Shown here in pieces: positions 1,907-64,000 of a stretch of 64,000 nt of DNA. The stretch's first letter is position 1. The number at the start of each line of letters is the position of its first letter. The notes beneath the pieces were generated by a model. The model made no database searches and was not told where the DNA came from. It saw only the letters and a program-made list of their open reading frames with translations. Both the position numbers and the translations under genes were made by a program. The DNA is taken from positions 28,223,995 through 28,287,994 of the forward strand of contig CM055096.1 in assembly GCA_029204225.1 (NCBI GenBank), read 5' to 3'. This DNA comes from Diphasiastrum complanatum. Lineage: Eukaryota > Streptophyta > Lycopodiopsida > Lycopodiales > Lycopodiaceae.

Positions 1907-2409
1907 AGATAGCTACAATGGAGAATGAGGTGATGAGAAGGACAGACCGGCAAACGAAAGGGAAGAGCCAGTGATGGCTGACTGGCCATCAGAATGGCAT
2001 TAGAAGCTTGGTCAAGAAAAGCATGGGAAGAGTGGGGTGAAGCTCCATCAGATTTGGTAGAGGCGAGTGAGAGAGAGAGAGAGAGGTTGAAAAATGTTTC
2101 ATTTAAGGTTTAGTAGGGTTCAGAATGATTCAGCTAGGTTTTTGTTCAGCATGGTTTTTGTTCCGTTTGTTGTGAGCAGAGAGAGATAGAGAGAGGGAGG
2201 ATCAGAGAGCCTGGGAGTTAATACACCTAAATTGGACCATCTTGCACCCGAAACAGTCGGCAAACTACACAGTCATAATGCTCTCAACCAGAGCTTTCAT
2301 CTGATACCCATATTGCCTAAAAAAATTTCAAAAAAAAAAATCAATTCTGCACGATCCTCTGAAAAACCCCAATTCGGAGTCACGATTCTGATCGCGGTGC
2401 ATCTATGGT

Positions 2410-3492
2410 ACTAATTGTGCTGTTCATCTAGCTAACTTTTATCTTTCCTCTTATGAATTTGAATTTATACAAAGATTAGTTTCTTGTGGTACTTGTCCCA
2501 TCTTATTGCATAAACTAACTCATGTTAGAAGATATATTGATGGCTTATTTGTTCTTGATCTTCCTAATTTTGCTAGTTTTCTATATAAAGACCCTAATGT
2601 TTTTGGTGGAGGAATCTATCCTAAAGACTCATGTGAACTTAATTGTACAACTAGTGATAATAAGTGCAATTTTTTAGAATTGTCTATAAGCCAGGCTAGG
2701 TCAGGTCTATTGATATTTTTGATAAAAGGCTGCAGCCAGAATACAGTAACTTCAACATATTCGCATGCCTCATATTTCTTCAAATATTTCATATTTTGTT
2801 AAATATGGAGTGATCACTTCTCAATTCCATAGGTTTTCTCGTCTTTGTACTAGTAGAGATGCTTTTGTAGACCAGTCAAGCAATCTAATCATTTTGTTAC
2901 TCCATAAGGGTTACTCGTTTAAGAAAATCATGAGAAAAGTTCGAACCGTTCTAGACTCTTTTGGTTTTATCTTTGGTATTTTAGCTTATGGTATGTTTAA
3001 GATGATAATAATAGAGTCCAGAAAAGTGGGGAGCTAAGGAGCCCGCTTTGTTTCTAGTATTTTGTCTTTGTTTTAGTAACTCGTAGACATATGATGATCC
3101 TTGTTCTTATTTATTTTATTTTATTTATTAATGAAATTTATAAATTTATAAATTCTATTTTTGAATTTCATTCGTTTTTTGAATTGCTATTATTTTGTCT
3201 TTCTTCTTACTAGTTGTCCTTTGCGTCTTAGTCAACATTGGGTTTACCCAAGAGAATTCGGATTCTTTCGAAACCCAGTTAGCAACTTATGCTTGGGTAC
3301 TGATGAGACATAAGCAATGCTGTTTGGCTAAGATTTTTTTGGTTTATTGTATTTTATATTATTGTTTTGACTTACATCCTTTGACTTTTTGAGTTGCTTG
3401 TATATTGTTTCTAAGCTTTACCTTATGACATCACTGACTTCTCTATATAAATTTGTGAAATTGGATATATATTCCAATTTCACAAATAGATA
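2410..3492 (+). repeat. PLE upstream partial copy (pseudo-LTR)
   Basis: This segment matches 6356-7448 with scattered substitutions and small indels. It starts inside RT motif B (TNCAVHLANFY), so it lacks the nuclease and the first RT half. It runs through the RT C-terminus and the 3' UTR to the terminal hairpin. The catalytic box reads YIDG here instead of YIDD in the downstream copy. Conversely, the frame through ...RFSRLC...VDQSSN (about 2830-3037) is intact here but shifted by a 4-base loss in the downstream copy. Confidence 0.88.
3452..3486 (+). other. PLE 3'-terminal hairpin (upstream copy)
   Basis: A perfect 14-bp stem, TTTGTGAAATTGGA paired with its complement, encloses a TATATAT loop. 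It lies six bases before the end of the PLE unit and directly after the 3' UTR. The position suggests a 3' recognition structure for the element's RT (inference). Confidence 0.7.
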
Positions 3493-3924
3493 ATTTATCA
3501 TATTAAAGAACAAGTTCTCCTTGCAACAACTCAAGGGGTACTAGTTGAGCAGATGGATTGGGGCACTATAATGAGTAGGATAATGGTCTTTGGGTCCTTT
3601 TAGGATCAAGGGCTTTTTGGTTAGTTTCGTGAAAGACTTTCGGTGTGAGAGGGAGTCAAGTAGTGTTACTTCAAGAAGTCGCGGGCACTTGATTGCATGC
3701 TATTGTCAGTGATCTTTCGAGTGTAATAGGTGGTCCTGTTTAGGTACCTCACCGCTTTACAGCAGCGCTGTTAAACAAACGAGGGGTGTTGTCAACACTA
3801 ATTATGACCTCGGACCAATAGCCTTCAGGAGGGCCTGGTCTTAAACAATTGCCTGACTACTCAAAATATAATTTTTGGCTCTTCTACTATCGACACTTAA
3901 GAGCTTTGCTCTTCCATCCCTTTA

Positions 3925-5058
3925 CCTCTTTGTTTTGCTAGTAGAAATGGTACAAATCATAGAGAAAGGTTTAACTTTTTGTCTAGATGTAATTTGAATA
4001 AACTTCATAATTTTGGAGAAGATCCTATTAAATGGTCTGTTTTTAAGTCTTTGCTTGTTAGTACTCATTATACGAATAACCATATTAGAATTTTGAATGG
4101 CCTTAGACGTCTTAGAGAAAAACATGTGCATTCCTCTAGGCCTCTTAGCCCAATCCATACCAGCCAAGTAATCTATGTCATTTATAACATACGAAGTAGT
4201 AGTATGGTATATGTTGGCCAAACTTTTCGGTCTGCTTTTGTACGTTTTCAAGAACATGTTCGAGAAGCTAGAAGAGTATATATCTCTTAGTTTCCTAAAG
4301 AAGAATTAAAACCTTTGTATACTACTATAGCCAAATAAGGTTTTGAGTCTTTTCGGGTCTTTCCCATTGAGCACATTGCTGGAAACTTTTCTAATTCAAA
4401 AGAGTTTTTCAAGGTAGCATGGCTTCGTGAACTCTTTTGGATGAGAACTCTTCAGTCCTTTTTTCCTAGAGGTTATAATCTCGAGGGTAAGTCCAAGTTA
4501 CGAAAGAGTAGAAACTTTGGCAAAAAGAGTTCCATGTTGTCGAGAACCCACTCTAAACCTAAAAACATAACACCTTATGTTCGTAATGGTCTGAAAGTTT
4601 GGAAGCCTATATCAGAACATCTATCCCCTCCTCCAGAATGCTACATTCCACAAGCTGTGATCACACCTTCTCATCCCCTCCCTTCTCCTCGTGTTACTTT
4701 TAATACTTCTAACTTTTTGCCTCCTAGTAATAATGTTGTCTCTAGAACGTTTGCTTATAGAGATTACGTAAGGAGGTTACTTTATTTGGATCGTGTTATG
4801 TCTTTGTGCAAGTTCTCCCTCGATATGTTTAATAGATACAATCCTAAGAACCTGTTTCGGTTGCTCTATACTTTAGATAATATGTCTTGTCAAGATCTGG
4901 GTATTTCACATTCTCATTTTTATCAGCTTAAAACTCTTTTAAGTCGCTTTATAAAATCCATAGCTAATGTTGAAACTAAATGTTTTACCTCTAGTAAAGA
5001 TCTACTCATCACAATTTTTACTTCACCTGATCTTGACAAAATTGGTTTGTATTCTTAG
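3925..5058 (+). pseudogene. PLE GIY-YIG endonuclease and linker region
   Basis: A single reading frame spans this segment with stops only at 4288 (TAG) and 4336 (TAA). The nuclease core is VIYVIYN...VYVGQT...RFQEHVREAR (about 4168-4275), matching the GIY-YIG signature: the two tyrosines of the paired strands, then the R and H of the following helix. It is followed in frame by LRELFWMRTLQSFFPRGYN (about 4425-4480), corresponding to the conserved glutamate/tryptophan and L-x-FP-x-G block that ends this domain in PLEs. The remainder (4481-5058) is a basic linker without a recognised fold. The expected role is target-site nicking before reverse transcription. Placement upstream of the RT is the noteworthy feature. 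Confidence 0.82.
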
Positions 5059-5149
5059 AAAGCCCGAAGTTATGAATGCACTTCCTCCTTGTGTGAAGAA
5101 AATTTGGAATCATCAAATATGTTAAAACTATAGGACAAAAAGCCTTTAA

Positions 5150-6990
5150 TTATGCTGATATTGGTCGGAATCTTTCAGAAAGGAAAAAGTTGTCTATCCT
5201 TAATAGCCCTTGTTCTTGTGGTAACTCCTTTTTTTTGAAGTTTTGTGATCCTTCTTTAGGTCATATTGTTACTGCAGATACATCAATCCTTCCCTCATCG
5301 TTTTTGAAAGAGTCCTTTTCTAAAGGCACTAAATTCCGTCCTCCTCTTTTAGTAGATGCTTGCTTGTTAAAATCTATAACACGAGTATTAATAAGTTCAT
5401 TTACCATATTGAAGAATCTTTTGGAGTCCATGGTTTGTTATCAGAATGGAAAACTAAAGTTCTAAATTATGTAACTTTGAGTTTGAAAAAAGTTTCATCT
5501 GTCCCATCTTCTAATATTGATACTTCATTTTCTAATGAGGATGTTCTTCTTCGTAAGTTTCATAGACGTTTTGTCATTTCGTATGTGGATAAATGCTCAA
5601 ACAATTTTGTATTTGTTTGCAAGAAATTCTATTTGGAATCGTTATTGAATGAAGTCCATTCTCCAGTAGGAACATATAACCCTTGTTCTCTTTCAACTAC
5701 GAGTGTAATAAAATATCATCAAGATTTTTGTCATCCTTATAACTTTAATTGTTACCCAAATCTTCCTTTTCTTTGTGCTGCACGGAAATTTCATAAAGTT
5801 CCTAAAAGGCCTAGGTTTATTGCAGCAGCCTATAAAACTACGTTGACTGACCTTTCTAAGTGGCTAAGTAGTTGCTTCAAAGTGTTGCTTCCTTCTATTA
5901 ATGAGCTTTGGATAAACTTACTTAAGGATGCAGATGTTCCTATTAGTTGTAGTTGGATTTTGAACGATTCTGTAGGTATTATAGAAGTAATAAAGTTTTT
6001 CAACTCCTCTCGTACTTTAGAAGAAAAGACCCAACATATGCTTCTTCAAACCTATGACTTCACAACACTTAACACTAAAATCAATTTGGAAGATTTGAAG
6101 TTTCGTGTTAACAAGCTAATTCGAGATGCTTTTAGCAATAAACTAAAGGACACTCGATGCAAAGCTTTAAAAGTTGAAAAGAGTGCTTTGCATTTTGAGT
6201 TTTGTTGGCTTAAGAACAAAAATCAAGATGTCGATTCAAAGAAGAAAAGATTTACTAAAATAGTTGATGTTGTTGGCTGCACTTTCTCTTGGATAACTTG
6301 CATATTTCTCTAGGTGATTCGCTTTTTCAACAAACGATAGGTATTCCCATGGGTACTAATTGTGCTGTTCATCTAGCTAACTTTTATCTTTTCTCTTATG
6401 AATTTGAATTTATGCAAAGATTAGTTTCTTGTGGTACTTGTCCCATCTTATTGCATAAATTAACTCATGTTAGAAGATATATTGATGACTTATTTGTTCC
6501 TGATCTTCCTAATTTTGGTAGTTTTGTATATAAAGACCCTAACGCTTTTGGTGGAGGAATCTATCCTAAAGACTCATGTGAACTTAATCGTACAACTAGT
6601 GATGATAAGTGCAATTTTTTAGACCTTTCTATAAGCCAGGGTAGGTCCGGTTTATTGGTTGATATTTTTGATAAAAGGCTGCAGCCAGAATATAGTAATT
6701 TGAACATAATTCGCATGCCTCATATTTCTTCAAATATTTCAGATTCTGTTAAATATGGAGTGATCACTTCTCAATTCTACAGGTTTTCTCGTGTACTAGT
6801 AGAGATGCTTTTGTAGACCAGTCAAGCAATCTAATCATTTTGTTACTCCATAAGGGTTACTCGTTTAAGAAAATCATGAGAAAAGTTCGAACTGTTTTAG
6901 AATCTTTTGGTTTTATCTTTGGTGTTTCAGCTTATGGTATATTTAAGATGATTAATCATAGAATCCAGAAAATTGGGGAGCTAAGGAGCC
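5150..6990 (+). pseudogene. PLE reverse transcriptase (Naiad/Chlamys-like)
   Basis: The region begins with a CxC motif and GHIVTAD...FSKGTKFRPP (about 5205-5345), a block I recognise from nuclease-first PLEs. There is a frameshift near 5370. Then come VDKCSNNFVFVCKKFY (fingers, about 5585-5640), RPRFIAAAYKTTLTDLSK, motif A QTYDFTTL (about 6050), a second frameshift near 6285, motif B GIPMGTNC (about 6340), and motif C RRYIDD (6472-6489). After this comes the thumb-like YGVITSQFYRFSR (about 6750-6790), where a 4-base deletion relative to the upstream copy ends the frame at 6816. The frame would otherwise continue to about 6970. Catalytic aspartates of motifs A and C are present. The enzyme would copy PLE RNA at a nicked target. 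Confidence 0.85.
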
Positions 6991-7409
6991 CGCTTTGTTT
7001 CTAGTATTTTGTCTTTGTTTTAGTAACTCGTATACACATTATGATCCTGGTTCTTATTTATTTTCATTTTATGTTTTGTTTTTATTCTATTTTTAATTAG
7101 ATTTAATTTATAAATTTTATTTTTGAATCTCATTTTATTTAAATTATAATTATTTTTTCTTTCATCTTACTGATTGTCTTTTGCTTCTTAGTCAACAGTG
7201 GGTCTACCCAAGAGAATCCGGATTCTTTCGAAACCCAATTAGCAGCTTATGCTTGGGTACTGATGAGACATAAGCAATGCTATTTGGCTAAGATTTTTTG
7301 TTTATTAAATTTTTTATTGTTGTTTTGACTTAGATCCTTTGACTTGTTGAGTTGCTCGTATATTGTTTCTAAGGTTTACCTTATGACATCACTGACTTCT
7401 CTATATAAA

Positions 7410-7442
7410 TTTGTGAAATTGGATATATTTTAATTTCACAAA
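7410..7442 (+). other. PLE 3'-terminal hairpin (full copy)
   Basis: This corresponds to the 3452-3486 hairpin. Here the stem is 11 bp (TTTGTGAAATT with its complement) and the loop is longer, because the inner three pairs are lost by substitution and deletion. Both copies end with the same CAAATAGATA sequence just outside the stem. Confidence 0.65.
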
Positions 7443-7895
7443 TAGATATAATGGTGTCTATAGCACCCAAAAATCTATCAAAGCAAGTAAAATAAGGATG
7501 ACAAATGCCATTGCTAGATGGTGTGATAGTCACATCTACTTAGTAGCTAACGTTGATCGAAGCTTTTAAAAGTAGGGTTTTTCCCATGAAATTTTCTGCA
7601 AACTTGCAAATTGCTTGCAAACTAAAGCATTTAAGGTTGCCAGCAATCAAACTTGCAAACTCAAGCATTTGAAGATTGCCAGTGATCATAGAATTGATGA
7701 ACCGTGTACTTGTGAATGGCCATGCTCAGAGCAATGCATTCTCAATCAACAGTCTTTGTTCAAAATTACTATCCTTTGTATTTGTATTCCTTCTATATAT
7801 ATATATACGGAGGGACATTTATTTATGAAGTATATGTTGCATTAAGCGTTTAAAGAGAATTGAAAACCTTCTACATTCATAATTTCATATCTATG

Positions 7896-7898
<3 letters not shown>

Positions 7899-7979
<81 letters not shown>
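7899..7979. repeat. (CT)n(AC)n microsatellite
   Basis: About 66 bases of pure CT are followed by about 16 bases of AC. The sequence between the PLE end (7450) and here contains no recognisable exon. Confidence 0.95.
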
Positions 7980-7982
<3 letters not shown>

Positions 7983-8522
7983 ATATCTATCTTTCACATG
8001 TGGAATGTGCTCATATCCCAAGGCGTTACATATTCATTGTGTATGAAGCTTGAGGAAAATCTCCGAGTTCCGTACAGAATGTTTTTACATTTCATAATTT
8101 TTTTGCAAAATTCAAATAAAAGTTACTTTGGAAAACCATGATGTTGTGTGCCAAATAAACCAATATATTGGAAAATTTGACAGAGTACAGAAAATTAATC
8201 TGAGTAACATCATTTTTTCCCTAACAAAACATTCAGGACTATTGATTTTACCGAGACAATGTTTCATACCGCAGGCAAAACATTGTTTCAGTACTGCTTT
8301 GCAATCTAAGATGCTTGCTATCAAATCAACTAAGTTATCCTCTACAGGTTATTTTTTGCATATTTTCCACCCTAATTTCTTAATTTATAGTTCACATCAG
8401 CTTATTTGGTGTACCATGTCTCTTCATGTGTCTTAGCAAAGAAGCTATTTGCAAAAAAAGGAAAAAGTTTACTTGCCGCGATCAAAGTTAGAGAGTATCT
8501 GAAACTCTTTTCAATTTTTCAG

Positions 8523-10258
8523 GTTGAAATAGATCGAACCAGTGTTTTTTTTGAGAAGTACTCAGATTTTGGAGATCTTGGTCCCATTGTTGACAAGGTC
8601 ATTGACAATGGTGTAGGAGGAGATGCTAATTTTGTGAAGACACCTTTTTGCTTTATAGAAAAAGAATACGCTCTTGACAACCTCGTGAAACCTCGTATGT
8701 TCTCTATTTACTCCAAAATTCGAGCTGATAACTTAAGCAATCAGCTTTTATCATTTCATTGGCTTATCACTGCACTTTTATGAAGTTTAAGATGTAGAAG
8801 CCACATTTTTTTGCTTATTCTTTAGGTGTTTTCAGGGGAACAAGTTCCTTGGAGCAGCATCAACTGGCAGTTATTGTTGTCCTTTTGGATAAACATTGTG
8901 GTTTTCCTCCACCGTCTGGTTGACATATGCTATAAGAAGCTGATTGTTTCTGGGAATACTAGTCCTAAAGGAACAGGTAATTATATGGGCATGTCATTGA
9001 ATCCTCCTGATTTGCATTCTTGGCATCCCTCTGTCTTTGAGGAGCATGTTTCTTCATCCAAGTTCATTGAACGGGTAGAAAAATTGGAGGAGAAGGTTAA
9101 TGTGCTGAGCAAGCCAGTAGAACATACACTTACAAAAGAAGATGCTATAGATCCTGTTAAAGAGCGAATAAAATTGCTCGAGGCTGAGCTGACAGAGACC
9201 AAACAGGTATATATAGATTCTTTCTGGCTTTCACATTCAATATTTAATAATTTCAATTGTATGTTTTGGAATCTCTCTTGCAGGAGAAAACCAATCAAAG
9301 TGGCCTTTGTTGTATATTTGTAAGGTGTCACATATACAATAGTAGTTATAAAGGATGAAACTGAGACCCTTTGAGTCATCATTGGTCTTTCAGATCAATT
9401 TTCTTCAAAGTGGTTCAGTCTTTGATTTTTCTGTGTTGGATTTTTTTTCAAACAGTCTAGGAGCACTCCGTATTTTACACCAGGGTATCCTGTGGTATCT
9501 TAACTTTTATTATTTGAATCTTATGGAGATTATTCAGGCTTTGCAAAATGTGTTGACTAAACAAGATGAACTATTGGAGTGCCTGGAGCGGCTTCAAGAG
9601 CTTAAATGGGAGGTACGATCTCCATTCAATTCCTAATCATTGAAAGTAATTACTTATTTGTAACACAAACGTGGTGACCTTATCTTGTGGTGTTTATGAA
9701 CATTGCATCTCTGTGATTTTCCAATTGCATAACTTATGCTTCCTTAGCATTTGCATCAATTCTTGCTGAACCCACTTAGAAGATCAGTCATTTTGCGGAA
9801 AATATTTAGCTTTTGAATTCTGCAATCTGGATAGCTTATATGTTGTGCGTTACAGTTCGCACAGATGTTCCTTATTTTTAACAGAGCTCTCAACGTTGCC
9901 TTCATCCTTGTGTCAATACAAGAAATTGGCTTGCTACCCTTGGTGAACAGGAGGTGTATGGTATCCCTAGATTACCGCTTAAGTTTTTATAAGATGCTTG
10001 TTAAGATTAGGGCATGTCGCATTTCACAACTGTTCATACTTGTTGCTAGCATGCCAATGGTGCACAGTTTTGGTCAGCACCTGCAAAGGGAAGTCGACAG
10101 GCTGCAACCAGCCTGGGTCCCGATGTTTGTCTGCACTTCGAGCTATTGAAGCATAACAATCAGGATGATAAGAATTTGAGGATTACATACACTTCATACA
10201 CATGGTAACTTAAAAAAATCTTTTGTACTTTTTGCAGAAGAAGAGTTGGTGCTGGTAA
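8523..10258 (+). CDS. SEC14-like PI/PC-transfer protein (SFH type), 3' exons
   Basis: Four joined exons are visible: 8523-8694, 8836-9206, 9538-9612 and 10238-10258, all with GT-AG introns and consistent phase. The encoded C-terminus contains SDFGDLGPIVDKVID (matching the EYDEYVPMVDKAVD block after the CRAL-TRIO domain in plant SFH proteins), a hydrophobic stretch near LLSFWINIVVFLHRLVD, and a coiled-coil tail FIERVEKLEEKVNVLSKP...LEAELTETKQ...KQDELLECLE. It ends in a basic/aromatic KKSWCW tail like the nodulin-type C-terminus of these proteins. Family role: transfer of phosphatidylinositol/phosphatidylcholine and support of phosphoinositide signalling in polarised membrane growth. The SEC14 lipid-binding domain and all earlier exons are not found between 7450 and 8523. 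They must lie left of the LINE and PLE, or be lost. Either the retroelements sit in a large intron or the gene is 5'-truncated. Confidence 0.82.
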
Positions 10259-15038: not shown

Positions 15039-15092
15039 GTGTAGTCCAATAAACCATGAGATTAAGTTTGTTCTATTTGTATTACTGTTAAC

Positions 15093-17710
15093 ATGTCTCA
15101 TATTGGTAGCTCTTCATCTTCATCATCCAACAAAGCTAGAGTCATTGACAAGTTCAATGGTTCTAGCTTCTATATCTGGAAGTTAAAACTTCGGATGATG
15201 TTGATAGATAAAGATCTTTGGGATGTAGTAGAAGGTTCTGACCTCAAACTAGAAGGTGGTGATCGAGCAAACGCATGGAAGATTAAAGATCAGAAAGCCT
15301 TAGCATGTATCACACTCAATCTGGCCGACTCCCAAATATCCCATGTTACCACATGCAAAACCTCTACGGATGCATTAGATTTGTTATCAAATCTCTATAA
15401 GACTCATGACGTAACCACTAGATTACATCTTAGAAGAAAGTTCTTTACTCTTAGCATGTCTGATTCTACTGCCAACACTTCTCACATCAACAACTTCAAA
15501 TCTTTAATGGATCAATTATCAACTGTAGGATGTGCTATTCAAGATGATGATGTCGTTATGGTCATCTTCTTCAAGAAGAAATGCGAAGAAAGACCAGCGG
15601 CCTGTCCATCAAAGACAAATCCATGGCCCTATACACCAAGAAGACTATTCCAAGGGCAAGAATCAAGTGCAGCAACAACAACAGAAGCCTCATACTCAAG
15701 CTGAGCATGGTGGATCGCGCAAGAAGATTTTCTACAAATATTTCAAGAGAGCCAATCACGCCATCAAGAAGTGTCGCATCCACATCTACAATGAGGCAAA
15801 GAAGCAACAACAACAATAGCCAGACTCCTCCAATGCGACGAAATTCAAGGAGCAAGATACACACTTGTTAATGGCTTACAACAGCAGCAACGAAGACTCT
15901 GATAGCTGGTACCTAGATAGCGGCGCTGCCCAACAGATGACCTCTCGCAAGGAATGGTTAACTGCGTATGCAGCTTATAGAAGAGATCAATTCATCTACC
16001 TCGGAGATTCAAGCACCATACACGTTGAAGGCAAATGAATGGTCAAGATCAAATTCAACAACGATCTATCTATTTGTGCTCCCAACGTCCTTCATGTTCC
16101 TCAACTATCAAAGAACATATTATCAGTCTCTAAGATAACTGATGAGGGCTACACTGTCACTTTCTCATTTGAGCAATGTACAATCTTCGATGAAGATATC
16201 ACTCTAACTACATGCACTAGAGTCGGAAATCTTTACGTACTCTCTAATTTAGTTGCATTAGCTAGCATCTCTCATGAAAATGTAAACGATAATGCTATTC
16301 TGTGGCATATTTGATTTGGACACGTGAATACAAGCTTACTTTCCTAAATGCGTTGTAATAACTTAGTTGATGGATTGTATTTTTCTTTTTCATTAGATAG
16401 GAAATCTTTCTTTTGTGAATCATGCGTCTATGGCAAACACTCTAGAAGCAAGTTTCCCAACTCACATTCCATCAAAACAAAACATGTATTGGATCTTGTA
16501 CGTAGCGATCTTTGTGGTCCAGTGCCAACTCCGTCCTTAGGAGATGCAATCTATTTTATCACTTTCATAGATGATTATTCTAGATAGTCTACAGTCATGT
16601 TCATTAAGCAAAAATTTGAAGCCTTTGAATGCTTCAAGAGATTCAAGGCCCTGGTTGAGACACAAGCATCTACAAAAGTGAAAGCACTCCGAACTGATGA
16701 TGGCGGCGAATACCAAGGAGTGGATTATCAAGAAATTTTCAGTCCTGTCATCAAGATGCAGTCAATCAGGACTTTGATTGCGTTAGCAATCGCGGAAGAC
16801 CTTGAAATGAACCAAATGGATGTCAAGACAACATTTCTCAACGACAACGTCGAGGAAGAGCTGTATACCTTCCAATCAGAAGGATTAGAAGTCAAAGGCC
16901 AAGAGCACAAAGTGTGCAAACTGCACAAAGCAATCTACGATCTAAAACAGGCCGCAAGAGCATGGTTCGATAGAATCAACTCTTAGCTCATTCAATTGGG
17001 ATTTGCAAACAATTCAGCTGACTGTAATGTTTATTTGAAGCATATAGACACCACTTCAGTTCACATAGCTTTTCACATAGATGATGCGTTTATTTTGTCT
17101 AACGACACTTCTCTTCTGCACACTATTAAGAGTGATCTATCAAAGGAATGTGACATGACTGATTTAGGAGCTGTCCATTTTTTGCTAGGAATTTACATTA
17201 CTAGAAATAGACTTCAGAAGAAGATCTATCTTAGCCAGCAGACATATCTAAAGGGCATTTTAGAAAAATTTCATATGTCTGATTGCAAACCAATTAATAC
17301 TCCAATGGATCCAAGTATAGTATTGACTAAACCTACTTGTGCTGATTCTGATAGTGAAGTACTCGACATAGTAAAGTACCCTTATCATTCACTAATAGGA
17401 TCTTTGATGTATGCAATGTTGTGTACTAGACCAGATTTAGCATACACTGTTAGCACGTTAAGTCAATTCATGTCTAATCTTAAGATCTCTCATTGGAAAG
17501 CATTAAAGAGAGTGATGAGATATATTTAGGAAAGTTTAGATTACATTTTATGTTATGATGACAATGCTATTGACCCACTCGTCCTGCGAGGTTACTCCGA
17601 CTCAGATTGGCAAGGAATAGTCTCTACCAAAAAATCTACCTCCAGGTTCTATTTCTATCTGGCAAAGGGACCGATTTAGTGGAACTCAAGCAGAAGTCAA
17701 TTACGCTTTC
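15093..17710 (+). pseudogene. Copia element A gag-pol, degenerate
   Basis: Domains in order are a gag of the UBN2 type (KFNGSSFYIWKLKLRMML, 15093-15570), a decayed zinc knuckle (about 15730-15780, cysteines replaced), a protease WYLDSGAAQQMTS (about 15905), and an integrase core (CVYGKHSRSKFP, 16340-16720). Reverse transcriptase starts with VDYQEIFSPVIKM (16723) and includes QMDVKTTFLN and FHIDD in place of YVDD (about 17070). RNase H is cut short at 17710, immediately before the LTR. Between integrase and RT the usual C-terminal integrase and linker of several hundred residues are absent: TDDGGEYQG runs straight into the RT. In-frame stops occur at about 16036, 16312, 16585, 16984 and 17527, and frameshifts in late gag. 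The order PR-IN-RT-RH identifies Ty1/copia. Confidence 0.93.
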
Positions 17711-24660: not shown

Positions 24661-24983
24661 GTTAATTCTGTGATAGATTTGAGTGGGCGCGACTAGGCAA
24701 AGGTCCTACGTCCGGTCTCAAGGGGAATGTGGCTTGAGAGAGATCCTCTGTGTTTGCTTTGGTTGGTATGTTCATTTGTGGTGTGCTTGTTTGGAACTGA
24801 ATAACCGCCTGGTTGCTTAACTTCTTCAAGGTGATCTGATCTAGTTGGGAGTTGAAGGAGGAGTTTACATTTGTGGGTGGACGACATACAAGTATGGAAA
24901 AGAGCTTCCATGGGGAAACCCCCAAGATTGGTTCAAGATTATTATTCTAATCCGGAAAGATCGCGGGGAGGAAGTCAGATTTC

Positions 24984-27900
24984 ATGATCGACTTTGGAGC
25001 TTCACATAGCTATATTTCAAGGAGCGTAGTGGAACAGTTCAGCTTGCTGACCAGAAATGTAACATCAACACTCAAGGTAGAAACAACAAAGGGAGCACTG
25101 GATGCAGACAAAGCAACATTGAACATCCCGATGCAAATTGGGAGATGGAAGACTAAACTTAGCTTTTTGATTTTAGAGATGGATGTCTTCGATGTAATTT
25201 TGGGCCTTCCCTGGCTAAATGAACATTGTATTGCAGTTTTGGATAGGAGCTCAAACTTGGTTCTCTTGGATTACAAGGGACAGATCTATATGACAAAAGC
25301 TCTGCCTGGAGGGAACGCTAAGGGCACCGATATTGAACAAAATCTGGGTGTTGCATCTGTGATTAAAAGCATGGCAAAAGGGAAAAGGTCTAAGTGCTTT
25401 CTTTGTATCTACGGAGAGGTTCCAGAAGGGAAAAACACACAACAGAAAACCTTGCCAAAGGAGGTGGCAGATTTGCTAGATGAATTTAGCGATGTGTTTC
25501 CGGAAGAACTCCCAGCTAAGTTACCTCCTCGAAGACCAGTGGACCATAAGATTGAGTTGGTACCAGGAACAGAACCAACTTCACGAGCACCCTATAGGAT
25601 GTCCCAAGAAGAGTTGGTGGAACTGAACCGACAACTTGGTGAATTGATAGACAAAGGATTCATTAGACCTAGTGCTTCGCCTTTTGGAGCCCCAGTGTTA
25701 TTCGTGGAAAAGGCGGACAAGACACTACGGATGTGTGTGGATTACCACATGCTCAACAAAGGTACCATCAAGAACAAGTATCCCATGCCTAGAATTGATG
25801 ACCTGTTCGACCAGCTCAAACATGCCAGATATTTTAGCTGAATAGATCTCCGATCTGGATATCACCAAATTCGAATAGCTAAAGGAGATGAGCACAAAAC
25901 GACTTTTCGAACACGGTATGGGAGCCACAAATTCAGGGTGATGCCGTTCAGTCTAACAAACGCACCAGCCACTTTTTGCATGTTGATGAACAACATTTTT
26001 CAAGACTGCTTAGATGAATTTGTCATTGTGTGTTGGTGTTTAGTCGTAGCCTCAAAGATCACATTAAACATTTAAGGACGGTCCTCCAACGACTGAGGAA
26101 GAACAGCTTGTTCGCGAAAAGAGAAAAATGTGAATTTCTGGTAGAGGAAGTTGATTTCCTTGGACATGTTATAGGCTACGGACAATTTCGGATGGATCCT
26201 AAGAAGATCAAGACTATCTTGGATTGGCTGGCTCCTAAAACTATTCACGACATCAAATCCTTTGTGGGCTTATGTAATTTTTACAGGAGATTCATTGAGG
26301 CATTTAGCAAAATTGTGGCACCATTGTTGGAACAGACCAAGACTCATCTGAAGATGACATGGACACCGGAATGTGAAGCAGCGTTCCAAGAACTAAAATG
26401 ACGGATCACTCAAGAACCCATCCTTGCCTTACCGGACTTTAGCAAACCTTTCGAAATACATACAGACGCGTCAAACTCTATTGGGGCCATGCTGATGCAA
26501 GATGGAAAACCTGTTGCATATTTTCAAAGAAATTGAGTGACGTAGAGCGACGATGGCCAACTCATGAAAAAGAAATGGTTGCAATAGTTCAAGCAGTGGA
26601 GCATTGGAGACATTATGTGGCAGGAAAACCCTTTAAGGCGTTCACTAATAATGTATCACTCAAGTACTTCTCATCCCAAGGTATGCTCATGCCAAAGCAA
26701 ATGCGATGGCAAAACTTTCTCTCAAAATTCAATATAGATATTGTACACACGGCGGGAAAGAACAATGTGGTGGCAGACACACTAAGTAGACAGGAACACT
26801 TGATGGCAACGGTGACAACTCAGGTGACTGGCCTACTCCAAGAGATCAGAGAGTTTTATGGTGCAGATGCATTGGCGAAGGACTTCATGATCGAATTCCA
26901 ACTGGGAAAGCCTCATAAACATTTCACTTGGAAAGATCGAATGGTTGTTTATAAACAACGCATAGTATATGTCCCAGACAACATCAACCTGAGGAAGAAA
27001 GTCTTGCGAGAACATCATGACGTACTAGCCGCCGGACATCCAAGGGTGAATCGCATGCATGAACTTCTCAAAAGAGGCTTCTATTGGCCAGGTATGTGGG
27101 CAGACGTTGAATTCTATGTGCAAACATGCCTGACATGTCAACAAGTGAAGGTGGAACCGCTAGCTCCAGCAGGACTACTCCAACCATTACCGGTACCAGC
27201 ATACCCATGGAATTCGGTGAGCATGGATTTTATTGTTCAACTACCACGGTGCCAAGGCTTCAACTCAATTTATGTGGTGGTTGACCATTTTTCAAAGCAA
27301 GTTCACTTGGTACCAACTAAAAGTTCAGTGACAGCTAAAGAAGTGGCAAGGTTATTTTTCAAATGTGTCTTCAAATACCATGGCCTACCTAGAACGATTA
27401 TTTCTGACCAAGACACCAAGTTCGTCGGAAAGTTTTGGACTAGTCTATTTCACCTTGTGGGAACTGGACTGAATTTTAGCACTGTATATCACCCTCAAAC
27501 AGATGGACAAACGGAACGAGTCAATCGACAGATTGAACATAATTTACAAAATTATGTCACTTGGGGGACCAATCCGATTGGGTCAACTACTTGAATATTC
27601 TCAAGTTTGCACATAACAACCAAGTGAACAAATTTACTGGACGAGCACCCTTTGAGATAAGCAATGGTCGGCTACCGATTGTTCCAAGCTCTTTTCTTAC
27701 AGGTGTGCAAGAAACCCCAGTACCCACTGTGGAGGAATTCATCAATGAGTGGAAGTTGACAGAGGTGAAGTCATTTTTAGAGCAGTCCCAAAGAAGTATG
27801 GCAGCTGACGTAAACCCACATCGACGAGAACTGGAATTGCGTTACCAAAAGGTTTCTCTCATAAGTTCGTTCGACCTTATGCGGGGCCATATTATGTCAC

Positions 27901-39973: not shown

Positions 39974-45481
<5,508 letters not shown>

Positions 45482-54145: not shown

Positions 54146-57100
54146 TTAAGGCAATGCCTTGGTGAGTATATCAGCAATGCAATCTGATGATGAAACATGA
54201 ATAATCTTGATCTCCTTTGGTTGCACTTTCTCCCTCATGAAGTGATGTGCAATCTCGATGTGCTTTGTTCGAGCATGGAAGACTGGATTGTTTGCAAGTT
54301 GTTGGGCTGCTTGATTATCACAATATATGCATAGAATGCCTTTATCCTTGATCACATGTAGCTCCTCTAGAAGGCTTTTAAGCCAAAGGACCTCCTTTGT
54401 TGTTGTTGTCATAGCTTTATATTCGGATTCTATTGATGAAAGAGAGATGGTATCTTGCTTTTTGGAAAGCCAAGATATAACTCCTCCACATAAGAATGTA
54501 GCAAATGCACTTATGGATATTCTATCCATCTTGTCACTTGCAAAACTTGAGTCCGAATATGCTCTCAAACAAATATTAGTCCTTTCATAAACTATGCCAA
54601 AGTCTTTTGTAGCCGTGATGTACCTTAACACCCTTTTTGCTCCTTTCCAATGACATATTAATGGACTTTGCATGTATTGACTCAACTTGCCAACACAAAA
54701 ACTAAGATATGGTCTAGTGATGGTTAAGTATATCAAGGAACCAATAAGCATTCTATAGGTAGTGATGTCCTCAAAGGATGCTTCATCACTTTCCTTAGAA
54801 ACTTTTACACTTGGTTCCATAGGAGTTTCAACTCCTTTACAATCAATCATGCCAAATCTTGCTAAGATTGATCTAGCATACTTAGATTGACATATGAAGG
54901 TAAAATCATTACTTCTAGTGACTTCTATTCCAAGTATAACTTTAAGAATCCTAGATCTACCATCTTAAATTCACTAGACAAGGAAACTTTTACATTCTTG
55001 ATGCCATCTAGCTCATTTCCTGTGAGTATAATGTCATCAACATATAAAACTAAGATAATGAACTTTCCATCATTACATTTGTAGTACAATGATGGTTCAT
55101 AAGAACTTATAACAAATCCAATGGAAATAAGATAGGAATGCAACCTAGAGTACCATGCTCTTGGTGCTTGCTTGAGTCCATAAAGACTCTTCTTCAAGAG
55201 ACACACCTTGTCTTCTTCTCCATCTTTGATGAAGCCCTCGGGTTGGCACATGTAGATTTCCTCTTCCAAGAATCCATTCAAGAAAGCATTTGTCAGATCA
55301 ATTTGGAAGAGCTCCCATTTGAAAGAAGTTGCAAGACATATGATTAATCTAATGGTCACAAGCTTTGCAACAAGTGCAAAGGTTTCATCATAATCTATGC
55401 CTTTGACTTGCAAAAAACCTTTTGCTACAAGTCTAGCTTTGTACTTATGAATGGAACCATCTTGATTATATTTCGATCTATATATCCATTTACAAGTAAG
55501 AGGCTTCTTTCCATAAGGTAAATCAACATTCCAAGTTTGATTTTCCATTAATGCATCAAACTCTACTTGCATAGCTTTCCTCCAATATTGAGACTTATTT
55601 GCTTCCTCAAAACTAGTTGGTTCTTCAAGCATAGTAGTCAAGAAAGTATAAGAGTTGAGTAGTTGAGAATCTTCCCTTTTCTCCCCTTTGTCACTATAAG
55701 TGAGCCTTGATGGCTCAATCCTTGTCCTTGTTGATCTTCTTGGCACCCTTGGACTTGGAATAGATTCCACTTGGTCTTCATCTTCATGAAGCTCCTCCTC
55801 GGCCATAGCATGATCTTTGACAAGTTGAGTGTTGTTGGAAGTCACCTTTCCTTTGTCTTGGAGAGATTCATCAAAAAGTACATCTCTACTAGCAACAACC
55901 TTTTTTGTAATAGGATCATATATCCTATAAGCTTTCTTACTTTCACTATAACCAACAAAGATGCCTTTGAAAGAAGTGGCATCTTCCTTTTTCCTTGTTT
56001 CTAAAGGAATATGTACATAACAAGTACATCCAAAAACTTTCAAATCACTAAGATTTGGCTTTTTGCCAAAAAATACTTCATAAGGTGTAAGTCCTTTAAT
56101 GGCACTATTAGTCATTCTATTACAAAGAAAGTTTGCACATAAAATAGCTTCTCCCCAAAATGAAATAGAAAGAGATGCATCTAATCTCATAGCTTTAGCA
56201 CACTCACATAGTGTCCTATTCTTTCTCTCAGCTACTCCATTTTGTTGTGGAGTATATGTACAAGTAAACTCTCTCTTTATGCCATTAGTTTCACAAAACT
56301 CTTTCATCCTATTGGAGATGTACTCCCCTCCATTATCACTTCTTAATACTTTCAAGCTAGTATTAAGTTGCTTTTTCACAAGAGTTTTGAAATTTACAAA
56401 GGGCTCAAAAACTTCACTTTTCTTAGACAAGAGATAAACCCAAGAGTATCCTGATTTATCATCAATAAAAGTGACATACATAAGAGCTCCACCATTTGAT
56501 TCATGCGAAAATGAATGGACATCCGAGTGTATAAGTCAAGAGGAGAGTTAGATCTTATCAAAGATCTCTTGAAAGGAAGCTTATGAGATTTGGAGAGTCC
56601 ACAAGCTTCACAAAGCTTGCCACACTTGGATATGGTTTTGGGAAGTCCTCTTGCTAGCTCCTTTGTCACCATGGTCTCCATAGCTTTGTAGTTATTATGG
56701 CCTAACCTTTTGTGCCATAATTCCACTTGAGTGAGCTCCTCCCTTGCCATGTTCACACTTCCAACCATCACATTAGCATCCAATTTGAATAACCTCCCTT
56801 TCTTGAAACCACTAGCAATACATTTTTCATCTTTCAAGATAGAACATGCTCCATGCTTGAAATGTACATCTAATCCACTATCCATAAGTTGTCCTACACT
56901 CAACAAGTTCTTTGTAATTGAAGGTACATAAAGAACATTGTCTAGATCTACTTTTTTAGATGATCCTAGACATAAAGGAATGGATCCAACACCTACAATC
57001 TCACATTCTTGATCACTTGCAGTGAAAATAAATCTCTTAGAACTATTGTAAGAAAGTAGATTAGAAAAGGAGTCTTATTGGTGAGTCATGTGAGAGCTTG

Positions 57101-58063
57101 CCCCACTATCAATCCACCAAGTGTCTTGATTAGATGTTTGTGGTGAGGATACCATCAAAGATAGATTGCCTTCTTCCTCCTCCTCAAGCACAAGATTGCC
57201 TTGATTGTCCTTCTCTTGGGCATTCTTCTTCTTGTAGCACTCGGATGCAAAATGTCCCTTTTTTCCGCAAAAGAAACACTTTAGCTTCTTCTTGTCCTTC
57301 TTGCTCTTGCCTTTGGAACTTGATGCTCCATCTTCTCCATCTCCATGTCTTGAGTCTTCTTGGATGGAAACTTCTTCTTCTTGCCTTTCAAAGAAAAGTT
57401 AGCCTTTTCATCACCATCATTCAAAGATAAGGAACTCATCCTACTTTTGATATGAAGCATTCTACTCTCCTCACTAACAAGCACACTTTGAAGTTTTTCA
57501 ATACTAGGAAGTGAATCTTGAATAGCAAAGGTTTGAACAAGATTGGAATAATCATCTCCTAATCCATTCAAAATGATTTGAACTAATTCATCATCTTTGA
57601 TTTTATCATCTATAGAAGACAACTCCTTATTCAAAGATTTGATCCTAAAGACAAGATTTTGGGCACTTTCACTACTTCCTTTCACACTTTGAAGGATTTG
57701 ATTCCTAAGCATGAGTATCCTTGAAGTGTTCTTCGATCCATAAATGGCTTTTAATGAATCCCATGCCTCTTTGGATGTGGTACAAGATGAGATTTCTTTC
57801 AAAAGTTCATTACTTACATTCATTTCTATGCAGTGTAATGCAACTCTACATCTCTTTTTGTACTTAGCCAATTCAACTCCTCCTTGAGGTTCTACTTCCA
57901 CCTCAAGTACTATGTCATAAATATCATGAAGTACAAGCAAAGATTTCATTCGAACTATCCAAGTAACATAATTAGTGGATGTAAGTCTTTCACTAGAATG
58001 TGAAAAAGCACTAGAAACTCTTATGGTTTCTCTAAGAGATCTGAACCTAAAGTCTTCTAGCAA
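54146..58063 (-). pseudogene. Copia B gag-pol
   Basis: Gag (58063 to about 57300) contains the UBN2-type region (TNYVTWIVRMKSLL...EAWDSLKAIYG). The zinc knuckle CFFCGKKGHFASEC (about 57230-57270) is intact but one frame off, so a shift lies near 57300. Protease has WWIDSGASSHMT (about 57105) with a TAA directly after at 57075-57077. Integrase spans the zinc finger ELWHKRLGH...CGKLCEAC, a frameshift near 56550, then the core (SDNGGEYIS, TPQQNGVAERKN). RT runs from WRKAMQVEFDALMENQTW to LVLYVDDIILTGNE (YVDD intact, about 55040). A break near 54870-54925 precedes RNase H, which ends ADILTKALP. The PR-IN-RT-RH order is copia. Only a handful of lesions suggest it was functional not very long ago. 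The gag ATG is not obvious. Confidence 0.95.
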
Positions 58064-58580
58064 TTTAGAAAGCTTATAGACTCAATCCTATCACTCATGA
58101 GCCAATCTAGAATGATGGAAATTTAGATTCTAGTCTCAAACTTGCAAAATCACTCCTTAATCTATGATTTTTAGCAATCTCTCTCTTCAACCTCAACATA
58201 CACTCAAAAAATCAGAGAAGATCAATTAGTGCACCTAATTCAAGCTTCAATTTTAGTTTTTTGACTGATCTAATCCAAGAACTAATCAAGGGATTAGATT
58301 TACTATAGAAAATGCTTGATTTTGCACCGAAATCACTCAAATTGGGTATGTGAGTCAAATTATACAAATTTTTGAAATTTCTCAGTCAAAACCGGAGCTG
58401 TATGGCCTCACATGTGTAAAAAGGATTCCTACAGCCCACAACAAGATCTGGACCAAAATTTTTTGAGGATAGCTATCAAATCCAACTCGCTACACAAAAT
58501 TTGACTAGTTTCCAAAAAATTGCTAATTTTGGCTTTGATCTGGATTAACCCTATCAATTTCAATAAAACCTCTTGTACTA

Positions 58581-61289: not shown

Positions 61290-62536
61290 ATTTTGAAAAC
61301 CCTGCAAAGCATGGCACGGGAAGGGGAGGAGAAGGCACTCATCACCCAAGGCAAAGGCAAAGGCAAGGGGAAGGCACATTCAAAGAAGAAGGACAAGCTC
61401 AATGAGGAGAGTGATGATGCATCACAATCTTCATCAACAAGTGGCAAGAAGGACAAATCCAAGATAAAGTGTTTCTATTGTGGTAAGAAGGGGCATTTTG
61501 CTTTATAATGTTTCAAGAAGAAAAAGGCTTTTGGCAAGCAAGCTAATCACACTAATGAGGGAGAGGTGAGTGAAAAGGAAAAATCACTTATGATGTCAAT
61601 TTATTCTTCTTCTAGCTTTAAAGGTGAAAGTCCTTGGTGGATAGATAGTGGTGCTAGTTCTCACATGACTAGTCAAATAGGATCTTTTTCACATATTGCA
61701 TCCTATGATGGCACTAGAAAGTACATTTAAACTGCAAATGATAATGAGTGTAACATTAAAGGAATTGGAAGTGTGCCAATTGATCTAGGATCCACCAAGA
61801 TCTTAAAGCTAGATGTTGTTTTTTTTTGTGCCTGACATCACCAAAAATCTTCTATGTCAAATGCTTAATGATGGTCTTCAAGTTGATTTTGGTGTGGATG
61901 CTTGCTTGATCAAGGAGGATGAAAACTTGGTAGCAAGAGGGACAAGGCTTGGAAGACTCTTTAAGTTGGATACTAATGATGGAGCTAACCCTTGTGGTTT
62001 GATGGCCGAGTTTGTGATGTCCAAGGAGGAGCTTTGGCACAAAAGGTTGGGCCATCCCAAGTTCAGATCCATGCAATCCATGATTGAGGAAAAGAAGGCA
62101 ATTGGCTTCACATGTGCTTTGGCAAAATCACACATATTTCCATTCCCAAGGTCCACTACTTCATCCACTCATCCTTTTCATCTTGTGCACTCGGATGTTC
62201 ATTTTTCATCATCTAGGAGCAATGGTAGTCTACTATGCTTGTCTCCTTCATTTCGGATGACTACTAGATTCACTTGGATTTACCTCTTATCTTCAAAAGT
62301 TGTGGTGTTTGACACTTTCTTGAAGTTCAAAGCTCTTGTAAAGAATCAATTTGATGTCAAGATCAAGGCATTGAGGTCAGATGGAGGTGGGGAGTACATC
62401 TCCACAAAGTTTCAAGAGCATTGTGAGCAACTTGGCATCAAGAAGGAGATCACATGTGCCTACTCACCTCAACAAAATGGAGTGGCCAAGAGCAAAAATC
62501 GAACTCTTTGTGAATGTGCAAAAGCTATGAAATTGG
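61290..62536 (+). pseudogene. Copia element C gag-PR-IN fragment, interrupted
   Basis: The fragment starts in late gag: a basic G/K-rich stretch and the zinc knuckle CFYCGKKGHFAL (about 61470-61506), whose final cysteine follows an in-frame TAA at 61506-61508. Protease WWIDSGASSHMT (about 61638-61670) follows, with a TAA near 61728 and a further frameshift near 61820. Integrase begins ELWHKRLGHPKF and continues through HSDVHF...SDGGGEYIS...SPQQNGVAKSKNRTLCECAKAM, then stops at 62536, where another LTR element begins. The N-terminal gag, RT and RNase H are absent. It is a relative of copia B. Confidence 0.9.
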
Positions 62537-64000
62537 TGTTATGTCCATGACCAGTAAGTAGGATTCAGTATACTCCTAGTCTTGAATATACGGTACTCCA
62601 GTAAATCAAGCTGTTAGTTATGCCATGTCATACTGGATGTGACCCAAAAGTAGCTAATATCCTTGTGAGACCCAGAACACACTAAATGGAGTTTAGACAA
62701 GGTATGAGACAGTGTATGCATGTGTAGAGTTATCAATAGCAATTCTATGAATAGGTGGTCCATGCATAGGACTCTATTCTAGGTGAATCTACGTATAGGG
62801 AACTTAGGGCTATGCATGGCTATGTGCCCAGGTTGTTTTTGGCTCTATATATTGAGGCCAACCTCGTCCTACTCCTCATTGTGATCATGGATTCATTGCC
62901 AAGGTTTCACTCTACATTCATGCTTCTTGTTCCTTGGCTTGGGGGTGAAGCTTCTAGAGTTGATTGGTTGCTTCTACTTGGTTGGGTGGTTGCTCCATAG
63001 TGTGTTTTCCATTGTGTGTTATCTTGTAAGCAGGATCTTAGGGAGCTTCCCTTATAGTGGTATCAGAGCAAGGCTTACGAAGATTGGAGAACATGGAGAA
63101 GGGCTACCTTTCGTCGAAATTTTGGATTGGATCCATGGGAATTATCTTCCAAGGTGGATAGCAAGGGTACCAGTGGGTGTACTATCCCAGTTTCAATATG
63201 CATGTTGCTAAGATCCATTACTCTTGGGATTCTTTGTGGTTTTATGGAGAATTGTCCTTGAAGGCCGATTTGTGATGCTTTTTTGGAGCTTTTTCATGTG
63301 TGGATCAAATATTTGGTAGATCTGAATTTTCCAGCAAGTGTACTTTCGTTTTAGGGCTCATTAATGATGAAATTAATGATGCATGCCGGTTCTCTCCAAT
63401 GATTTATGATTCTAGGCTATGTTTTGGTCAAAATTGCTTGGTTTTTCATGCTTTTTGGCACAAAATAGATAGTAAGAACCAAAATCTAGCAAGATCAGAT
63501 CAATTAGATGGTTGAAATTCTGTAAATTGGTTTGCATGTGTTAGAGAAAGAGTTGTATGTCATGAATTTCCACTTTATGGTGATGAAAAAACCAGAAAAT
63601 AGCCAAAAATCATCATTTTTGCTTGTTTTTTCATAAAGTTGGATAGTTGGTGGCTGTAAATCACCATGTAGAGCTTGTATAATGGTGGACCAAATTCTTT
63701 TGAAGCTTTTCCTGAAGTTAGAACCAAGAATTCTAGCAAGTGGACTTGTAGGAAGTGAAAAAAGTTCAAAAAATGACCATTTTTGGTGATTTTTGGGGGA
63801 TGGATATCTCCAAATCCATAAGGAGATCATTCTAGAATTAATTACAACATGATTAGCATTCCTTTTTACCTTCCCAGCAAGCTATCAGACCTATGAATTG
63901 ATGGCCGGTGGCTTATGCACCATCTCCATCAAGTTTGAAGCTATTTTGACTTCTACAAATCAAGAAATCTTCGTTCTCAGCCTACACCGTATCTTAGGAT
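62537..64000 (+). mobile_element. LTR element nested in copia C (5' part)
   Basis: Copia integrase similarity ends abruptly at ...AKAMKL and new sequence starts TGTTATGTCC (62537). At 63058-63069 there is a perfect initiator-Met PBS, TGGTATCAGAGC. The interval 62537-63057 is therefore read as a roughly 520-bp 5' LTR. Its last bases are CTTATAG rather than the usual CA, so the exact LTR end is uncertain. After the PBS, 63070-64000 has no gag-like coding sequence, only a long leader, as in large non-autonomous (LARD) elements or those with long leaders. The element runs off the right edge. Confidence 0.7.
63058..63069 (+). other. Primer-binding site of the nested LTR element
   Basis: TGGTATCAGAGC is a perfect 12-base match to the initiator-Met PBS, followed by AAGGC. 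Confidence 0.85.

Follow-up and report, generated by a model that had tools for sequence, protein, structure and literature searches.

Penelope-like elements (PLEs) in which the nuclease precedes the reverse transcriptase (RT) carry a CxC linker between these two domains and an insertion-in-fingers domain in the RT. Naiads are nuclease-first PLEs with a CxC linker, and they share with canonical PLEs a CCHH motif in the nuclease, which Chlamys is not known to carry. To our knowledge, nuclease-first PLEs have no canonical hammerhead ribozyme. Chlamys elements were reportedly found in spike mosses by Craig and colleagues in 2021. Selaginella is placed in Tracheophyta. As spike mosses are vascular plants, a vascular host alone would not make a Chlamys element a novelty.

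In a 2022 review of land-plant transposable elements, the PLE rows of Table 1 contain only Dryads, from conifers, and EN-minus PLEs, from Selaginella and from conifers (PMC9033089). Selaginella PLEs have been described at telomeres (PMC12477314). In the paper on the Ceratopteris genome, "Penelope" and "PLE" are absent from the main text as whole words (PMC9477723). The Chlamys group name has also been used for three families of the brown alga Ectocarpus (PMC12477816). Among the matches listed in our search, which covered part of the literature, no title or abstract opening named a PLE of the nuclease-first order from ferns or seed plants. The kind of element described below is already known. 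What would be new is mainly its host, and its hairpin end is also of interest.

The window analysed here is the whole stretch of 64,000 nucleotides. It contains an element that is very probably a degenerate nuclease-first PLE, anatomically nearest to the Chlamys group and fixed in a plant-like nuclear genome. The coordinates of its parts are collected in Table 1. The first-pass annotation had placed a GIY-YIG nuclease ahead of an RT with GIPMGTNC and YIDD, on one strand and within one unit, and the translated motifs bore this out. On the plus strand, the nuclease motifs VIYVIYN, YVGQT (4210-4224), RFQEH, RELFW and GYNLE start at 4168, 4210, 4243, 4426 and 4471, respectively. The CxC linker reads CSC (5211-5219) and lies between nuclease and RT; the GHIVTAD block begins at about 5262, a place counted by eye on the translated frame. 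Penelope-type RT motifs span about 5790-7000, in order, downstream of the nuclease and on the same strand. They are HKVP at 5792, RPRF at 5807-5818, YDFTTL at 6053-6070, GIPMGTNC at 6340-6363 and YIDD at 6478-6489. Ahead of 6790 on the plus strand we also found KYGVITSQFYRFSR, in which the place of KYGVIT was counted by eye on the translated frame.

Table 1. Parts of the element and of its tandem copy, with positions in the window.
Feature	Position	Strand	Basis or remark
5′-truncated upstream copy (3′ part of RT and 3′ UTR), direct head-to-tail tandem (pseudo-LTR)	2407..3492	+	alignment
3′-terminal hairpin of upstream copy, 15 bp	3451..3487	+	fold -19.0 kcal/mol, z -5.9, 0/200 shuffles as stable
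Longer unit (nuclease, linker, RT, 3′ UTR)	3493..7450	+	start is the end of the upstream copy, same 3′ terminus; 5′ end not independently fixed
GIY-YIG nuclease region	4168..4500	+	PF01541 match and motifs; cysteine-free; in-frame stops 4288, 4336
Linker with CxC and GHIVTAD block	5097..5372	+	translation
RT fingers to motif A (HKVP, RPRF, YDFTTL)	5378..6271	+	open frame 5333-6310
RT motifs B, C and beyond (GIPMGTNC, YIDD, FDKR, YGVITSQFYRFSR)	6271..6790	+	open frame 6268-6816; tblastn matches L001, L002
C-terminal end of RT protein, no nuclease behind	6793..7004	+	open frame 6753-7004; counterpart stretch in upstream copy
3′-terminal hairpin of longer unit, 15 bp	7409..7443	+	fold -14.3 kcal/mol, z -5.7, 0/200 shuffles as stable

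With its stops read as Q, the nuclease region matched the GIY-YIG profile PF01541 at E = 5.6e-4 (20.6 bits), and a longer stretch of the region matched it at E = 0.0031. The earlier GIY-YIG call was therefore above chance, although the score is 2 bits below the Pfam cut-off of 22.6. None of the RT families in Pfam or NCBIfam was significant in scans of the separate RT pieces, taken one by one. A PDB sequence search with two pieces returned nothing significant (best E = 1.3, a spectrin). Two structure predictions, with mean pLDDT values of 41.7 and 32.5, were of too low a quality for searching by fold; the one model of an RT piece was unusable and covered a part of the RT outside the fingers.

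Three stops interrupt the reading frame, two of them within the nuclease (4288, 4336) and the third at 5056. The frame also shifts at least four times, around 5060-5097, 5373, 6270 and 6792. With its frame broken in this way, the copy at 3493-7450 is dead. Over 99 aligned codons, 16 changes separated the upstream copy from the longer unit, of which 5 were synonymous and 11 non-synonymous; random change would be about 21% synonymous. Judged from these codons, the differences between the copies are close to neutral and hardly point to selection acting on the protein. We did not detect a target-site duplication at the insertion ends: the longest shared word was 6 nt, a length reached by 704 of 1000 shuffles. 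Neither (CT)n nor rDNA was seen at these ends. A (TC)n microsatellite of 32.5 units lies at 7900-7964, which is 450 bp downstream of the element and off its end.

The cysteine content of the nuclease bears on the subgroup. Within 3901-4560, cysteines occur only at 3907, 3931 and 3988, and there is none from 3991 to 4560. As no cysteine follows 3990 within this stretch, a CCHH finger cannot be present in the nuclease. By the definitions of the groups as we know them, the cysteine-free nuclease seems to favour Chlamys over Naiad. The first-pass annotation had called the element a Naiad/Chlamys-type PLE. Its nuclease-first part held: the GIY-YIG lies on the N-terminal side of the RT's own unit, the CSC linker is present, a pseudo-LTR is formed by 2407-3492 and 6352-7448, and no hammerhead was found. 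The Naiad half was not sustained, as the CCHH is absent. The vascular-plant host named in that annotation is plausible, and the element may have come to it by vertical descent or by horizontal transfer. Like Chlamys PLEs, as far as we know them, the element has the nuclease before the RT, a CxC linker, no CCHH, a pseudo-LTR and no hammerhead; unlike them, it shows no rDNA or microsatellite at its insertion ends. With Naiads it shares the nuclease-first order and the CxC linker, but not the CCHH cysteines. Dryads and canonical Penelope elements have the GIY-YIG behind the RT, whereas in our unit the final stretch, 7004-7450, is free of any nuclease frame. The GIY-YIG region sets it apart from EN-minus PLEs, which have no nuclease. 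The anatomy thus fits Chlamys as we know the group, and not Naiad, Dryad or EN-minus PLEs. Among the land-plant elements in print, the conifer Dryads, which belong to the Penelope/Poseidon group, resemble ours in being PLEs with a GIY-YIG in a land plant (PMC9033089), but the nuclease of that group is described as C-terminal (PMC11167929) and that of the element stands in front of the RT. The EN-minus PLEs tabulated for Selaginella and conifers share a land-plant PLE RT with it and, unlike it, lack the nuclease (PMC9033089 Table 1).

Relatives were sought with the back-translated GIPMGTNCA against genome_contigs, which holds one genome each for 84,980 prokaryote species. This motif-B scan yielded two records, both from symbiont assemblies: L001 (a Bathymodiolus symbiont) and L002 (Thioglobus). 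Both probably carry host (animal) DNA. In a tblastn set consisting of these two loci (11,574 bases, pre-selected by the motif-B pattern), L001 matched the motif-B stretch of the RT with 25 of 42 residues identical and E of about 1e-13. Outside the search pattern, 16 of 33 residues were identical, as counted by hand. L002 matched at E = 3e-8, and its resemblance was lost after about 30 residues. The score of motif A against L001 was reached by 4 of 2000 shuffles; motif C was weak, with 53 of 2000 shuffles as good. The spacing from motif A to B was 284 nt in the element and 262 nt in L001, and that from B to C was 138 and 136 nt, respectively. A Pfam scan covering three L001 frames ended without any match, be it to an RT or to GIY-YIG; L001 therefore has no bearing on the nuclease order or on Naiad/Chlamys affinity. 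Viral contigs were scanned four times and did not add a confirmed relative. The nearest relative retrieved, at 3175-3789 on the minus strand of L001, is a fragment of a retroelement RT that has decayed; although it stands in the assembly of a bacterial symbiont, it is probably DNA of the mussel host.

The tandem arrangement raises the question of whether the domain order is real. Canonical PLEs with a C-terminal nuclease, standing in tandem, could give the same appearance if the nuclease closing the upstream unit was mistaken for the beginning of the following one, and a partial tandem copy does lie directly upstream of the longer unit. Aligned over 1110 columns, this copy (2407-3492) and 6352-7448 share 90.5% identity. 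However, it ends at 3492, with a hairpin terminus as at about 7448 of the longer unit, and the nuclease begins only 676 nt further on. Since both copies share one terminus, the 3′ end of the unit is fixed shortly behind the RT. In the forward frames of 7004-7450, behind the downstream RT, no nuclease frame was found. With the 3′ end fixed and no nuclease there, the nuclease has to be assigned to the 5′ side, and the order is not an illusion of the tandem repeat. The CxC stretch between nuclease and RT also argues against canonical units, and we consider this explanation highly unlikely. The nuclease-first order separates the element from canonical elements in tandem. Tandem copies with a 5′-truncated member, or pseudo-LTRs, are themselves described as a trait of PLEs (PMC8969392; PMC11167929).

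An animal source is suggested by L001 and L002, the only relatives retrieved, which come from symbiont assemblies and are probably animal DNA. The element might then be of Naiad type, present by contamination or by recent transfer from an animal. Against a Naiad stands the cysteine-free nuclease, whereas Naiads are known to us with CCHH. Against fresh contamination stand the decay of the copy, the divergence of about 10% between its two parts, and the copia and gypsy type elements that follow in the same window. An animal origin is accordingly quite improbable. The third possibility is that the element is not a PLE, and that a group II-like or other RT adjoins a GIY-YIG fragment by chance. The best NCBIfam RT match of the separate pieces was a group II RT, weak at E = 0.15, from profile libraries that hold no PLE profile. 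The pseudo-LTR tandem, the CxC linker, and the agreement with L001 in how the motifs are ordered and spaced all speak against such a chance assembly, which seems extremely unlikely.

Returning to the nuclease-first PLE, both of its copies end in a terminal hairpin that is A+T-rich and is followed by AGATA, and the copies end five or so bases behind it. Based on these two copies, the hairpin is a candidate for the signal that marks the element's 3′ end. The 3′ UTRs of the copies are 90-95% identical, except at 3081-3229, where identity is 74.3% with 23 gap columns; this low stretch is the exception, because the UTR on its other sides is also at 90-95%. The stretch 3230-3325 is 93.8% identical to its counterpart at about 7190-7285 and contains several short inverted repeats and a CTGATGA. 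Its fold is modest in both copies (z -2.1 and -1.8). We considered it as a specially conserved RNA block and dropped this idea, as the rest of the UTR is also 90-95% identical.

We also searched for a hammerhead. Rfam gave no match of any kind at curated scores in the window; two sub-threshold matches were to families other than hammerheads. The core motif CTGANGA...GAAA occurred seven times in the window, with 7.4 expected by chance, and none of the seven lay in the element. The CTGATGA present in both pseudo-LTRs (near 3299 and at its counterpart) was rejected as a hammerhead: GAAA lies upstream of CTGATGA, and there was no hammerhead match.

From this anatomy we infer how a live element may have moved. 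Its N-terminal GIY-YIG nuclease would cut DNA, and the protein would copy the element's own RNA from the exposed DNA end, that is, by target-primed reverse transcription. If copying ran across tandem units and stopped early, it would leave a 5′-truncated copy in head-to-tail junction with a fuller one. The 3′-terminal hairpin may act as an RNA signal, either for recognition by the protein or for setting the 3′ end. In vitro, the protein of a canonical PLE (Poseidon of Anolis) has been described to cut AT-rich DNA and to reverse-transcribe (PMC11167929). It starts reverse transcription inside its RNA and not at the 3′ end, according to the same source (PMC11167929).

It is possible, but in our opinion doubtful, that the locus represents a nuclease-first PLE family of Chlamys type whose host is a fern or a seed plant, beyond the spike mosses, with a 3′ hairpin replacing the hammerhead as the signal for the RNA end. 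If the host is a plant with a larger genome, a nuclease-first element there would help to bridge the algae or spike mosses on one side and the seed plants on the other, and would make it possible to test whether descent was vertical or transfer horizontal. The hairpin at which both copies end offers a testable idea of how PLEs that lack a hammerhead define their RNA.

The surroundings were surveyed with Pfam on selected flanking frames. They contain a kelch-repeat gene at 44481-45101 and domains of copia, gypsy and endonuclease-type retroelements, none of them exclusive to plants. Together, these domains and the kelch gene are consistent with a plant nuclear genome. The stretch 8391-9640 may read as part of a Sec14-like gene, a reading for which Pfam gave no support. 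The copia-/gypsy-type domains lie in long open frames at 15066-15704, 24951-25841, 26443-27594, 54925-56535, 57281-58081 and 61813-62550. On the minus strand, upstream of the truncated copy, a LINE-like frame at 457-1149 (perhaps extending to 2109) matched Exo_endo_phos at E = 3e-10, the scan covering 457-1149 alone.
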